A stretch of DNA of 48,375 bases from Gammaproteobacteria bacterium (GTDB lineage: Bacteria; Pseudomonadota; Gammaproteobacteria; Enterobacterales; Alteromonadaceae). The DNA lies in assembly GCA_017302255.1 (NCBI GenBank), contig JAFLDV010000032.1:1-48375 (forward strand). Reading direction: 5' to 3'. The first letter of the stretch is position 1. Each line of letters begins with the position of its first letter. Below the pieces are notes generated by a model that saw only the letters and a list, made by a program, of their open reading frames with translations, searched no databases and was not told the origin of the DNA. Below are positions 1,286 to 6,045 of this stretch, one piece after another. The position numbers and the translations under genes are program-made.

Positions 1286-1320
1286 TAATACCAACAATGT
1301 CGCGACTAAAGGTCATAATT

Positions 1321-1980
1321 ATGTTGGATCAACGCCGCACTTACGGGCATCATGCGAGTCAGTTTGCAAACAACTCGCCGGGACTTATGGATACGACAGA
1401 AACTGCGTCACCGCTTAACTTGGGCCAATGGGAAGAAGCATTGGGGTTAATCGCCATAAACCGCGACAAATCAGCTTACGCTGGTTTGTTCAACTACTTT
1501 GCCCCAAGACTTAAAGCGTTCGGCATCAAGATGTTTGGCAATGAGCAACAAGCGATGGAGATGGTGCAGGACACCATGCTAAACGTTTGGCAAAAAGCTG
1601 CGTTGTTTGATCCAACTCGCGGTTGTGCTTCGACTTGGATTTACACCATCGCCCGGAACGTCCGTTTTGACATGCTGCGCAAGAAGCAAAGTCGAAAAGA
1701 TGATATTAGCGCTGACGATTTGTGGAGTGATGGCGATTATCCAGAGCAAGAAGATTTACAGAGCCATAGTTGGGATCTGTATATCATTGCCGAGAAAATT
1801 GCGCCGCATTTTGCAGCATTACCGCCAGCACAACGTGTTGTGATGGAAAAAGTATATTTAGAAGAAAATTCACATCAAGAAGTCGCAGAGCAACTCGGGA
1901 TCCCGTTAGGTACCGTGAAATCGCGGATCCGTTTGGCTTTAGATAGATTAAGAGAGGCAGTCGATGGGCAACAGCGTTAA
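1321..1980 (+). CDS. ECF sigma factor of the RpoE-ChrR type (ECF11-like)
   Basis: This is an alternative sigma factor that directs RNA polymerase to stress promoters. Region 2 is visible as YAGLFNYFAPRLKAFG followed by QAMEMVQDTMLNVWQ and STWIYTIARNVRFDMLR; region 4 as LPPAQRVVMEKVYLEENSH and the helix-turn-helix PLGTVKSRIRLALDRLREA. The group assignment comes from its partner: the next gene, overlapping by 17 nt, encodes a ChrR-type zinc anti-sigma with cupin domain. In Rhodobacter this pair answers singlet oxygen and organic peroxides. I chose the ATG at 1321 (219 residues) because AAAGG sits 8 nt upstream; an in-frame ATG at 1297 has no ribosome site, and one at 1387 would give a more family-typical N-terminus. 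Confidence 0.85.
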   Translation: MLDQRRTYGHHASQFANNSPGLMDTTETASPLNLGQWEEALGLIAINRDKSAYAGLFNYFAPRLKAFGIKMFGNEQQAMEMVQDTMLNVWQKAALFDPTRGCASTWIYTIARNVRFDMLRKKQSRKDDISADDLWSDGDYPEQEDLQSHSWDLYIIAEKIAPHFAALPPAQRVVMEKVYLEENSHQEVAEQLGIPLGTVKSRIRLALDRLREAVDGQQR

Positions 1981-2644
1981 ACATCACCCAAGTTTAAGTT
2001 TGTTGGAACAATTCTGTGACGGTAGTTTGACTCCAGAAGTCGCACTGTTGGTCGCGACACATTTGGATTTTTGTCCTCATTGTCAGCGCCTTAGTAAAGA
2101 TATCGAAGCAGACTTAGCCTGTAGCTTTGCAGCAGCACCGGTAGCAGCAGGTCAAGATGATTGGTTAAGTATGATGCAACAGGTTCTTGCCGAAGCTGAA
2201 ACTACCGCCAAGCCAGTAACGCCATCAACAGATCCGGTTGTGACCAATTTAGAAGTTGGTGGACATCAGTTTGAATTGCCACGTGCTCTTCAGCGTCTGA
2301 GTAGCAAACGCAGCAAATGGCTTACGCTTGGTGGTATTGCGACGGCTAGGCTACCTTCGGGCGAGCCTCATCATATTTCATTATTGTTTATCGACAAGAA
2401 CACCGCAGTGCCACAACATACCCACAAAGGTTTAGAAATGACCTTAGTGCTGGCGGGTGAAATGGTTGATGAACAAGGCCGTTATGTCCCTGGTGATTTG
2501 ATTATCAATACTCCAGATGACACCCATACACCACGCAACGTCAGCGATGACCCTTGTTTATGTTTGTCGGTGTTAAGCGCGCCATTGCAGTTCAAGCAAG
2601 GCATGACCAGACTACTGAATCCATTGCAGCGATTTTTTTACTAG
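1964..2644 (+). CDS. chrR: ChrR-type anti-sigma factor with zinc-binding and cupin domains
   Basis: This protein is predicted to hold the upstream ECF sigma factor inactive until a stress signal. The N-terminal anti-sigma domain has the zinc motif with His33, Cys37 and Cys40, plus His7/His8 near the start. The C-terminal cupin has His152, His154, Glu158 and His188; this spacing (2, 4, 30) is the same as I recall for the metal ligands of Rhodobacter ChrR, which supports a true ChrR rather than a generic cupin. Length is 226 residues. The start overlaps the sigma gene (ATGGGCAACAGCGTTAA), with AGAGAGG upstream, so the two are probably translationally coupled. A bidirectional terminator follows, so this is a two-gene unit without the photolyase or cfa genes often found beside such pairs. 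Confidence 0.9.
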   Translation: MGNSVKHHPSLSLLEQFCDGSLTPEVALLVATHLDFCPHCQRLSKDIEADLACSFAAAPVAAGQDDWLSMMQQVLAEAETTAKPVTPSTDPVVTNLEVGGHQFELPRALQRLSSKRSKWLTLGGIATARLPSGEPHHISLLFIDKNTAVPQHTHKGLEMTLVLAGEMVDEQGRYVPGDLIINTPDDTHTPRNVSDDPCLCLSVLSAPLQFKQGMTRLLNPLQRFFY

Positions 2645-2729: not shown

Positions 2730-5021
2730 CTAGCAGAGCAAAGCAATACCACCTTTGAGGTTATACACTTCGGCAAATCCAGCTCTGTTGAGGATTTTCG
2801 CTGCTAACAAGCTACGATTGCCTGAACGGCATACCAACAACAGGCGCTGCGATGCATAGAGTTCTTGCTGCATCAGCGACCAGCAAATTCGTGACAGCGG
2901 CACATGCACAACTTTTGTTGTGGCCGGAATATAGGGCCCCAACTGCCCCGCGCTTTGCTCGTAGCCCTCTCGCACATCAACCACCAAGCAATCTGGATAC
3001 TTCGCCAAAAACAGATCTAGCTGCTGACACTCGACGATAGCTTTGGCATCTGACAGATTGACTTCAACAATACCGCATTGGTATTGCGCTGATTGCGCAA
3101 GCTGGCAACTTTGTTTATTGATTTCATCCAACCAATGTTGCGTTGGTAACTGCGCAGCCAACAGCTGGGCAAGTAACGGTTGTTCAGCGCATGCAATGTT
3201 CCAGGTAGTGAAGAATCGCTGTGCGTAGTCATGACTCGACAATAATACCGTGTCGTCAGCGATGCGTTGCTTTAATGCCAGTAAGCTCTGCACAAAGGCG
3301 TTTGCATCGGCATCTGGTAAATCCAAACGACCACAACCGCCAGGCAGCAACAGATCTCCGACAAATGCGCCAAGCAATTGCTCGCCGCGCCATAGCAATA
3401 AGCTGCGGCTGTCACTGCTATGTCCTGGCGTAGCCAGCTGCTCTAATCGATATTGACCGCAGTTAATTTCATTCTGACCACTAGGCCAGCCAAGGTTGTG
3501 ATCAGCTGCGGCCTCTGGTTTTAGCAGTGCCAGTAAATCAGCCCGAGCAGATTGATGATCTTGATGTTGATGGGTATCAAGCACGGCTAAGAGTGTTAAG
3601 CCTTGCCCCTGTACTAGGTTCGCCAAGCGATTTGCCAATGGCGCAACCGGATCAATAATAACCGCTTGGCGACTTTGTTCGCAGACCAAAAGGTAACTAC
3701 ACATGTCCTCATGTTTAAGCTGAGTCACCCCACAACATTGGTCTGTGTCTGTACTTAAAACATCTGAAAGCACTAAACAACATTGCCGCACCACCGGCGT
3801 CAATCGATGCAAGGCAGCGCAAGCTTGGTCAATTTGAGTTTGGGTTGTCGCCGGACCAAATGACATACGAATAGCACCTTGACTGCGCCAAGGTTCAAGT
3901 CCCATCGCATCAAGCACAAAACTTGTCGGCACTTTGGAGCTACAGGCAGAACCTGAACTAACCCGAATACCAGCGGCATCAAATAAATCCATGATATCTT
4001 TGCTATAAAAGCCCGGCACCGCAAAATTAATGGTGGTTGGCACTATATAGGGCTCATCACTATTTAATACCAAATCCGGATATAGTTCGCGCAGTGCAGC
4101 CAACAATTGCGCCCGAAAGCGCCACAGCGTCGCTTCGTTTTGAAAGACGGAATCGGTAGATTTTAATAATTCAGAAAAAATCGCATGCAGCGCAGCAATA
4201 CCCGGCAAGTTTTCGGTGCCAGAGCGCAAACCACCTTCTTGTCCGCCACCGGCGATAAAAGGCTGATACGGTGAACCTTGCCGAACGTATAAAAAGCCAA
4301 TGCCTTTGGGTGCATAAAGTTTATGACCGCTAAATGGCGCATAGTCGATGCTAGTATTGGCGATATCTAACGACATTTTGCCTAGCGCTTGGACACAATC
4401 AACCATCCAGCGGACATCTTTATTCACCCGCCGAATCAGCTGTTCGAGCGCCAGCAAATCCTGCTTAACTCCTGTTTCGTTGTTGGCGGCCATAGTGCAA
4501 ACCATTGCCGCCTTTGGCAACAATAGCTCCAGAGCCTTCAAATCGAGAATACCATGTTGGTCAACCGGGATTGCCTGAACTGTCGCATTCAACTGCAGCA
4601 CCGCATTCCAATGCTTTAAACTTTCCGGCACCGCTTTATGTTCGGTCGCGCCATACAACAGCAAAGTTTCTGGACCACCAAGTCCCCGCCGTTTTGCATC
4701 GGACAAAGCCGAAACAATTGAGGTTTGGATACCTTCAGTTGCGCCAGAGGTAAATACAATTTGTCCGCTACTGGCGCCAATAACTTGTCTTGCCAGCTGA
4801 CGAGTGGCTTCGAGCTCAACTTTCGCTTTAATGCCGGTGCTGTGACTACTGCTTGGATTGCCAAAGCATGTTTGCATGTGATGCATCACAGCCTCTGCCG
4901 CACATGGCAAAACCGGCGTCGTCGCGTTGTGATCGAGATAAATTTCGATGTGACGACCGCTCGTTTCCGGTAAGCATGATTTGGCAAGTTCAGCATTAGG
5001 TGTCGTGACAGACGTATTCAT
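2730..5021 (-). CDS. Three-domain sulfur protein: cysteine desulfurase + MBL-fold persulfide dioxygenase-like + rhodanese
   Basis: One 763-residue reading frame carries three sulfur-handling domains. Residues ~26-408 are a class V PLP enzyme of the IscS/NifS group: TEHKAV with His128, SGHKLYAPKG with the PLP lysine Lys234, GGGQEGGLRSGTEN, and SSGSACSS with catalytic Cys360. Residues ~430-620 are a metallo-beta-lactamase fold: THQHQDH (His484, His486, Asp488, His489), TPGHSSDS (His534), GDLLLPGG (Asp556) and SSHDY (His597), as in persulfide dioxygenases and glyoxalase II. Residues ~660-763 are a rhodanese with DVREGYE and the active-site loop CRSGNRS (Cys731). All key residues are present, so each domain could be active. 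CstB-type proteins join the last two domains; adding a desulfurase in front is unusual. The linker has two CC pairs (414-415, 429-430). The start has AAAGG upstream. No iscU or other Fe-S gene is nearby, which argues against a dedicated cluster-assembly role. Function is inferred. Confidence 0.85.
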   Translation of the reverse strand: MNTSVTTPNAELAKSCLPETSGRHIEIYLDHNATTPVLPCAAEAVMHHMQTCFGNPSSSHSTGIKAKVELEATRQLARQVIGASSGQIVFTSGATEGIQTSIVSALSDAKRRGLGGPETLLLYGATEHKAVPESLKHWNAVLQLNATVQAIPVDQHGILDLKALELLLPKAAMVCTMAANNETGVKQDLLALEQLIRRVNKDVRWMVDCVQALGKMSLDIANTSIDYAPFSGHKLYAPKGIGFLYVRQGSPYQPFIAGGGQEGGLRSGTENLPGIAALHAIFSELLKSTDSVFQNEATLWRFRAQLLAALRELYPDLVLNSDEPYIVPTTINFAVPGFYSKDIMDLFDAAGIRVSSGSACSSKVPTSFVLDAMGLEPWRSQGAIRMSFGPATTQTQIDQACAALHRLTPVVRQCCLVLSDVLSTDTDQCCGVTQLKHEDMCSYLLVCEQSRQAVIIDPVAPLANRLANLVQGQGLTLLAVLDTHQHQDHQSARADLLALLKPEAAADHNLGWPSGQNEINCGQYRLEQLATPGHSSDSRSLLLWRGEQLLGAFVGDLLLPGGCGRLDLPDADANAFVQSLLALKQRIADDTVLLSSHDYAQRFFTTWNIACAEQPLLAQLLAAQLPTQHWLDEINKQSCQLAQSAQYQCGIVEVNLSDAKAIVECQQLDLFLAKYPDCLVVDVREGYEQSAGQLGPYIPATTKVVHVPLSRICWSLMQQELYASQRLLLVCRSGNRSLLAAKILNRAGFAEVYNLKGGIALLC

Positions 5022-5063: not shown

Positions 5064-5252
5064 ATCATGATAAGCAATTGCCGGCGGTTCGACAAGCACT
5101 ACACCGCAATCGATCGAGCAATCAGGCTAACCATAGCTGCCTGTGACTGAAAATGCATTAGCCATAGTGGTAGGACGAATATTGGTTGCTTGGAAAAATG
5201 TCCATTAAACTTGCAACCACTGTCGCAGGTATTCGCTATTGCAGAAAAAGAG

Positions 5253-5285
5253 CATAAAAAAACTCCGCAATTGCGGAGCTTTTCA
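5253..5285 (-). terminator. Terminator of fadR
   Basis: CTCCGCAATTGCGGAG (5263-5278) is a perfect self-complementary stem. On the minus strand it is followed by seven T residues (complement of 5256-5262). It lies 43 nt past the fadR stop. Confidence 0.85.
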
Positions 5286-5328: not shown

Positions 5329-6045
5329 TTATTCAACTAAGTCTTTTGGAATATCCGGTCTTAACGCCGACCAAACTCGTCCTGACTCTTTACCGTATTT
5401 GCGTACAGCAAGGACAACTTCATCATGTTTACCCGCTTCTGCGTATAACTTCAGCTGGTGATAGTATTTTCTTGCTAACTCACGTGATTCTGGTTGCGAG
5501 AAATAGAAAGTCGCAATTTTACGGTATAAACCGCGGAAACCATTGAGGATCAATACATAAATACGGTTTGCTGAATGCAGGGCCAACTCGTGATTTAAGT
5601 TGTAATCAAAATCAGCAAAGGCGGTTGGAGTGTCTTCTAACTGCTCGGCGCCAGCAAAGGCTGCGATTGCTTGTTCACGATGGTTTTTCACTGCACCACG
5701 AATGTAGATTGCGCTGATGTTGGTGCGCGCAGACAATAACTCGTCAACTAACTCTGGCATCCGCTCTTCATCTAAGCGCGCCAAAGTCTCGAGAATATTT
5801 AATCCAGAGGTTTCCCAGAAGTTATTCACTTTGGTTGGTTTACCGTGCTGAATAGTCAACCAACCATCACGAGCCAAACGCTGCAATACTTCACGAAGCG
5901 TGGTTCTGGTCACGCCAATCAACTCTGACAATTCACGTTCAGCCGGCAGAATAGAGCCCGGGGCGAATTTTCCGTTCCAAATGGATTCAACGATATATTC
6001 TTCAGCAAACCCTGCTGGGCTCTGTGCTTTAATCAGGTTAGTCAT
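5329..6045 (-). CDS. fadR: Fatty-acid-responsive transcription factor FadR (GntR family)
   Basis: FadR represses beta-oxidation genes and activates unsaturated fatty-acid synthesis; long-chain acyl-CoA releases it from DNA. At 238 residues it matches E. coli FadR. The N-terminal winged helix-turn-helix is clear ([18 protein letters not shown], then [16 protein letters not shown] and [11 protein letters not shown]), and the all-helical acyl-CoA-binding C-terminal half shows the FadR-specific run [19 protein letters not shown] and [13 protein letters not shown]. The gene stands alone with its own terminator and is divergent from dsbB. A likely target lies in this window: the palindrome ACAGGTCTGACCTGT 27 nt upstream of fadI. 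No FadR box is visible upstream of fadR itself. Confidence 0.95.

Follow-up and report, generated by a model that had tools for sequence, protein, structure and literature searches.

We analysed a window of 48,375 nt from a gammaproteobacterium of the Alteromonadaceae (contig JAFLDV010000032.1, positions 1 to 48,375; "window" denotes this whole stretch and G000 its genome), in which a single polypeptide joins a cysteine desulfurase, a metallo-beta-lactamase (MBL) domain of the persulfide dioxygenase (PDO) type and a rhodanese (Table 1). On balance, and with a slight leaning only, we consider that this fusion is probably a self-contained enzyme for the disposal and relay of cysteine sulfur, in which the PDO domain of the window's lineage would oxidise sulfane sulfur to sulfite. 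Activity, product and direction of the enzyme are what we infer from sequence. In the proposed mechanism, the pyridoxal phosphate (PLP)-dependent desulfurase would strip sulfur from L-cysteine, freeing alanine and leaving a persulfide on Cys360, a step strongly indicated by its family. The persulfide would then move within the protein to Cys731 of the rhodanese, sustaining desulfurase turnover, and from there onward, as co-conservation and a published two-domain analogue suggest. In forms that keep the metal ligands, including those of the window's lineage, an iron PDO would use O2 to oxidise the persulfide to sulfite, which is consistent with ligands, fold and conservation; its substrate may differ from glutathione persulfide, a persulfide supplied by the enzyme itself being one candidate. 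More speculatively, the sulfite might be released, or might gain a second sulfur from Cys731 and become thiosulfate. The physiological role would be to clear surplus cysteine together with the sulfane sulfur derived from it.

An earlier note on this DNA gave the coordinates of the gene correctly, leaving out that it lies on the minus strand. The catalytic residues that it listed for the three domains are all present where it had placed them: Lys234, Cys360, T-H484-Q-H486-Q-D488-H489, His534, Asp556, His597 and Cys731 in CRSGNRS. Pfam assigns Aminotran_5 to residues 27-399 (PF00266, 8.9e-59), Lactamase_B to residues 441-489 (4.4e-05, 23.9 bits at a cut-off of 22.7) and Rhodanese to residues 678-759 (3.5e-06). 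A sequence search of the PDB pairs residues 26-401 with NifS/IscS, while the PDO-rhodanese fusion BpPRF aligns over residues 440-759 in a single stretch.

In order to follow up the proposal that the three domains are conserved as a unit, the architecture was searched across genomes. A scan of named genomes gave 292 relatives, the best 80 of which were kept as loci; 78 of these are complete three-domain proteins with 47.9-72% identity, and the two others (L020, L045) end at contig edges and are hence incomplete. In a sample of the order, 43 of 394 genomes match at E<=1e-90, in 13 of 114 genera, with G031, G853 and G1103 aligned over part of the query only. The recurrence of the architecture in these two sets rules out a sequencing or assembly artefact or a chance frame. 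Carriers belong to Rheinheimera, Alkalimonas, Arsukibacterium, Pseudoalteromonas, Thalassotalea/Thalassomonas and Shewanella, or are gammaproteobacterial metagenome-assembled genomes without a genus. The class sample gave 6 of 369 genomes at E<=1e-60; five of these match over the desulfurase part only, and the last is G000 itself. The phylum sample gave 14 of 398, ten of which extend past the desulfurase. In the family f211, 106 of 294 genomes match, one of them (G1431, 48% complete) with an open frame of 412 aa only.

Residues were tallied over 182 distinct proteins, 143 from the general set and 39 added from f211 to the fixed alignment; since f211 was searched on purpose, shares of this total are not natural frequencies. 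The 143 were kept only if they had the rhodanese motif, a filter that removed 11 of 154 distinct rows, namely two truncated at contig edges and nine other desulfurases. These nine (L115-L119, L125-L128) are desulfurases of other kinds and fall outside the fusion clade on the tree described below. At two of them (L115:70-2664 and L126:10-2688) we read from the sequences a desulfurase fused behind a metallopterin oxidoreductase-like domain, and L127 appears to have the same layout, judged from its open frame length of 1143 aa only. A gene near the L126 desulfurase is presumably EgtD-like. A metallopterin-dependent ergothioneine synthase has a layout of this type (PMC9516567).

Lys234 and Cys360 of the desulfurase are present in all 182 proteins. 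The domain has the class V aminotransferase fold with its PLP lysine in SGHK, and the 50 fold matches shown for the full-length AlphaFold model (84.4 in predicted local distance difference test, pLDDT) are all desulfurases or selenocysteine lyases. Cys360 lies in the loop SSGSAC, where residues 359-362 have pLDDT below 50, consistent with a mobile loop; we take this NifS/IscS-class domain to be of group I. Cys731 of the rhodanese is present in 181 of the 182, a count that holds by construction for the motif-filtered 143 and independently for the 39 unfiltered f211 proteins (38/39). The exception is L267 (f211, genome 82% complete), where a Val is aligned at the Cys position. The window's CRSGNRS motif holds a six-residue loop that starts at the catalytic Cys, which is the mark of a sulfurtransferase-type rhodanese. 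As 74 of the 182 proteins have an incomplete MBL metal site yet retain the desulfurase residues, the conserved core, judged by residue conservation, is desulfurase plus rhodanese, with the oxidation step an accessory of some lineages including that of the window. The earlier note had the Cys360 persulfide passing to a low-molecular-weight or a protein thiol. By analogy with CD-Rhd, a two-domain desulfurase-rhodanese of Pseudorhodoferax (PMC8931425), Cys731 is more likely than a small thiol to be the first acceptor.

The NifS/IscS-like character of the N-terminal domain would also suit a housekeeping desulfurase for iron-sulfur (Fe-S) or thio-cofactor assembly, or a selenocysteine lyase, whose fused domains have no catalytic weight. 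We regard this as very improbable. The domain scores far under the NCBIfam cut-offs of the NifS equivalog (280 of 531 bits) and the IscS equivalog (206 of 643 bits), and on the desulfurase tree all fusions group in a single clade (100/100), apart from the ten other desulfurases included. G000 encodes, besides the fusion, a separate IscS-like protein (35%) and a second desulfurase of class V (26%), and the fusion is unlikely to be its housekeeping enzyme. A separate IscS-like desulfurase (33-38% identity) is found in 26 of the 27 fusion carriers examined, the window's genome included, and is not listed for G004 (91% complete). The lack of an Fe-S assembly neighbour, already remarked on in the earlier note, stands: by reading of the neighbouring genes, none of isc, suf or nif was recognised beside the window fusion.

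Sequence and fold searches agree with the earlier assignment of the MBL domain, which is of the PDO type rather than the glyoxalase type. Its best sequence matches in the PDB are 4ysb (Myxococcus), 9rhq, 8zbd (Beggiatoa), ETHE1 and BpPRF, with glyoxalase II behind. For a separate AlphaFold model of residues 425-763 (mean pLDDT 90.5), the six best fold matches are BpPRF chains, followed by 3tp9, 3r2u and single PDOs (ETHE1/MxPDO), and the first glyoxalase II appears at rank 21. When the proteins of G000 were searched with the window MBL domain, only one further match was obtained, a weak one (28%, E 9e-5); with that query, the fusion is the only clear PDO-like protein of its genome.

The ligands H484, H486, H534 and D556 are complete in 108 of the 182 distinct proteins, and these define the metal-keeping set. 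At least one is missing in the other 74, which consist of 35 proteins from the set of 143 and all 39 f211 additions. The intact metal site claimed for the fusion is confirmed for the window, which has the two-His-one-Asp iron ligands (H484, H534, D556), and for the 108; for the 74, alignment reveals its loss. Among the metal-keepers C441, C649, H597 and D598 are invariant and Y599 is kept in 107, whereas among the 74 metal-less proteins C649 is found in 4 and C441 in 13. The counterparts of the AcPDO iron ligands, H59, H171, Y173 and C224 are invariant or nearly so in the metal-keepers. C649, placed by its 'QCG' aligned with 8zbd, corresponds to the Cys (hETHE1 C247, AcPDO C224) that is strictly conserved in type I PDOs and not in PDOs at large (PMC6060420). 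Variants of AcPDO in D61, H62, R139 or D141 are inactive or nearly so (PMC6060420), and the counterparts of these residues (D488, H489, R565, D567) are all present in the window. Cys441 (window positions 3699-3701; Cys649 is at 3075-3077) is without a counterpart among the PDO residues discussed and might be a relay site.

One type I residue is missing. The Arg of the glutathione (GSH) pocket is R190 in AcPDO and R194 in the Beggiatoa enzyme, 17 residues past the Tyr (PMC6060420, PMC11507549). A phmmer pairwise alignment with 8zbd, together with the Tyr177/Arg194 spacing (PMC11507549), places it at residue 616, which among the 108 metal-keepers is Leu in 94, Val in 8, Ala in 4, Glu in 2 and Arg in none. 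This suggests that the PDO domain may act on something other than glutathione persulfide. However, the type II PDO of Pseudomonas putida is also without this Arg (PMC6060420), so that its absence is no proof of a different substrate. In a bolder version, to which we give little credence, the protein would be a glutathione-independent single-chain machine that turns cysteine into sulfite or thiosulfate, the PDO having lost its glutathione pocket and acting in cis on the protein-bound persulfide passed from Cys360 to Cys731, and CD-Rhd would be a descendant without the oxygenase.

A tree of the desulfurase domain was built from 51 of the 143 fusions and ten other desulfurases. Metal-less forms stand at four places on it, namely L110, L194, L188 and the remaining f211 forms; loss of the metal site takes four changes on the best tree, at least two of which are forced by well supported branches. 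The metal-keeping L197 (G804, from the window's order) falls between L188 and the other f211 forms (99/96), so the loss there may have occurred more than once; its placing hints at gene transfer or repeated loss. The branch of L110 is long. Separately, we observed that the metal-less fusion variants L194 and L196 lie behind an operon that we take to be nqr, and the presumed nqr locus is also common to L110/L196 and L194, from which L194 and L110/L196 may be one lineage. Within f211 the forms range from a damaged but recognisable MBL domain (L188, L262-L264), through long forms without the motif, to forms of 510-541 aa without an MBL domain, and the short forms nest inside the long ones on the tree. 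In this family the domain decays and is in the end deleted, leaving the two-domain layout of the Pseudorhodoferax type. A separate PDO replacing the lost domain was considered in 18 genomes and rejected: some metal-less carriers have a further MBL match and others none, with no pattern.

We also compared nonsynonymous and synonymous differences (pN/pS). In four metal-keeping groups, where synonymous sites are near saturation, the median pN/pS was 0.33, 0.14, 0.35 and 0.19 for the MBL domain, 0.30, 0.12, 0.32 and 0.24 for the rhodanese, and 0.17, 0.07, 0.15 and 0.15 for the desulfurase. In one metal-less group the corresponding values were 0.81, 0.64 and 0.31. Selection in the window's clade thus maintains the MBL domain about as strongly as it does the rhodanese.

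In f211 the fusion is tied to a putative regulator. In a first set, 20 of 21 loci have an Lrp/AsnC-type gene transcribed divergently from the fusion, as do 36 of 39 in a second, 56 of 60 in total; the loci without it are L188, an early branch of the tree, and L262-L264, which are among the weaker matches and off the tree. With E. coli DecR as query, the divergent gene is the best match in both G692 and G1126 (160 bits; the next matches have 120 and 125), and four divergent neighbours reach 154-162 bits with DecR versus 95-105 with Lrp. Some other Lrp-type paralogues of those genomes also favour DecR (132-134 bits). DecR, also named CyuR, regulates cysteine disposal in a cysteine-dependent manner (PMC11408624). 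A candidate operator was searched for at 24 of 37 loci, the 13 without a detected start pattern being left out. A first palindrome pattern, with the wrong spacing, occurred at 2 of 24 and a second element at 13 of 24 (shuffle mean 0.07), and a 14-base intergenic dyad recurred in an almost constant position at 21 of 24 (shuffle mean 0.46, maximum 4). These patterns are post hoc, the third having been drawn up by eye from the very sequences in which it was counted, and they come from related loci. E. coli CyuA, tried as an alternative, is present in 4 of 60 relatives and 0 of 27 carriers, too clustered by kinship to be informative.

Several observations weigh against a disposal enzyme with a working oxygenase in the window's lineage. 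Joint superposition of the MBL and rhodanese domains on BpPRF gave a root-mean-square deviation of about 16 and a TM score of about 0.5, so that the domains match individually and their relative placing differs. Of the residues required in AcPDO, the metal-keepers retain D488 in 76, H489 in 67, R565 in 82 and D567 in 54 of 108. All three pN/pS ratios are raised in the metal-less group, and the contrast is therefore only partly specific to the MBL domain. By reading of the flanks, the fusion has no linked sulfur-metabolism gene in the window's clade. The link to a DecR-like gene is confined to f211, where the MBL ligands are incomplete in 60 of 60 proteins checked. Within the available flanks, such a neighbour is absent from the 80 named loci and from the 19 Alteromonadales loci L189-L207, and for the window the regulator evidence is consequently by kinship only.

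Taken with the missing GSH-binding Arg and with the incomplete ligands of 74 proteins, at four places of the tree and with at least two forced changes, the drift of the AcPDO counterparts might mean that the MBL domain is a glyoxalase II-like hydrolase or a structural relic, and that the protein is effectively a desulfurase-rhodanese only. We find this improbable. The window has every PDO counterpart but that Arg, and four residues beyond the ligands stay invariant in the metal-keepers, with Y599 close behind. Residues of the D488/H489 type are metal ligands in dinuclear MBL relatives, and their drift is a poor fit to a dinuclear hydrolase. Both searches group the domain with PDOs, and its pN/pS is about equal to that of the rhodanese.

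The dispensability of the oxidising domain, as seen in the same 74 proteins, could speak for sulfur supply or protein persulfidation with the PDO as a safety valve, or for a C-terminal half that runs in reverse, from thiosulfate to persulfide and sulfite for assimilation. This is unlikely in our judgement, albeit deserving of serious consideration. The title of the BpPRF paper proposes sulfur assimilation, and CD-Rhd is efficient at moving cysteine sulfur onto a model protein and also shows thiosulfate activity, although it is poor with thiosulfate for transfer (PMC8931425). On the other side, a DecR-like neighbour, which only f211 has, points to an excess of cysteine and not to a need for sulfur, and a dioxygenase with kept ligands would waste sulfur, which an enzyme meant for supply ought to conserve.

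If the fusion is indeed a cysteine-sulfur disposal and relay enzyme, reactive and toxic sulfane sulfur derived from cysteine would be generated, passed on and oxidised with no escape as H2S or glutathione persulfide. These gammaproteobacteria would have a further route of cysteine breakdown, beside the known desulfidase and transaminase/3-mercaptopyruvate sulfurtransferase routes. The oxygenase, found intact, decayed or deleted in different relatives, would then offer natural variants for testing what it contributes.

Table 1 Features of the fusion gene and its surroundings in the window. Residue numbers refer to the fusion protein.
Feature	Position	Strand	Remarks
Three-domain ORF: cysteine desulfurase, PDO-like MBL, rhodanese	2730..5021	-	763 aa, complete; ATG at 5021, stop at 2730
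Desulfurase domain, residues 26-404, NifS/IscS-like	3810..4946	-	PLP Lys234 at 4320-4322, catalytic Cys360 at 3942-3944
Type I PDO-like MBL domain, residues 431-652	3066..3731	-	metal ligands His484, His534, Asp556
MBL domain, other conserved residues			His486, His597, Tyr599, Cys649; Cys649 aligns with hETHE1 Cys247 / AcPDO Cys224
Rhodanese domain, residues 660-760	2742..3044	-	active-site loop CRSGNRS, Cys731 at 2829-2831
Promoter-like site TTGTCG-17-TATCAT, 9/12	5067..5095	-	upstream of ATG; weak: region has 4 such sites, 3.8 expected by chance
Terminator-like hairpin	5257..5284	-	between fadR-like gene and fusion; 7 such sites in region, 3.9 expected
fadR-like gene upstream of fusion (presumed)	5329-6045	-	same strand as fusion

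The terminator-like hairpin upstream suggests that the fusion gene is its own transcription unit. The flanking genes in the window's clade, which we take by sequence and without a domain search to be dsbB-, fadR-, chrR- and sigma-factor-like, are common to most Rheinheimera-type loci and different in Pseudoalteromonas, Thalassotalea and Shewanella. Since the flanks change among genera, these genes look like chance position, and they were rejected as functional partners. Two of them (window 1297-2644), presumably a sigma factor-like gene and a ChrR-like cupin, are convergent with the fusion and are kept in most Rheinheimera-type loci. At L044:4542-4760 and 23 other Pseudoalteromonas loci, a presumably TusA-like ORF of 72 residues, with CPQQ replacing CPxP, and then a gene that we assume to be PerM-like lie upstream of the fusion and share its strand. 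The gene two upstream of the fusion in L205 (3671-4639) and L206 is presumably CysK-like.

The three-domain fusion was not found described in the open full-text literature, a search that leaves most subscription papers outside and is weak evidence of absence. The word undescribed, used in the earlier note, would apply at most to the three-domain form, desulfurase-rhodanese and PDO-rhodanese fusions being already published. One of these is CD-Rhd (WP_056898193.1), which like the window protein begins with a desulfurase and ends with a single rhodanese, and whose layout is that of the 510-541 aa forms. It is a dimer and, per its authors, the most efficient desulfurase characterised; with GSH or beta-mercaptoethanol its kcat is about ten times higher owing to the rhodanese Cys, which also promotes delivery of cysteine sulfur to a protein (PMC8931425). 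Nothing catalytic stands between its two domains, whereas the window protein has a PDO-like domain with its ligands there. No MBL domain is reported for CD-Rhd in the available text of that paper, in which the word 'lactamase' is missing, and the likeness is one of layout that does not imply descent from the same clade. BpPRF (5ve3/5ve4/5ve5), the best fold match of residues 425-763, likewise has a PDO-type MBL followed directly by one rhodanese. It differs in having these two domains only, where in the window protein a 400-residue desulfurase precedes, in the placing of its domains, and in having the GSH-binding Arg (PMC11507549). CstB, which converts persulfide to thiosulfate (PMC9774590), and proteins of the 3tp9 type share the combination of MBL and rhodanese, but they are without a desulfurase and are weaker fold matches. 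Type I PDOs (ETHE1, MxPDO, AcPDO) share the Fe ligands, the second-sphere His, the GSH-pocket Tyr and the C224/C247-type Cys with the window family, which in place of their GSH-pocket Arg has mostly Leu. The entry 3r2u among the fold matches is, we presume, CstB. Finally, cyuPA of E. coli, the cysteine disposal system controlled by DecR/CyuR, resembles the f211 loci in having a DecR-like regulator tied to the gene. Its desulfidase yields pyruvate and H2S, in contrast to the alanine and sulfane sulfur expected from the desulfurase of the fusion, which in the window has no adjacent regulator of the DecR type.

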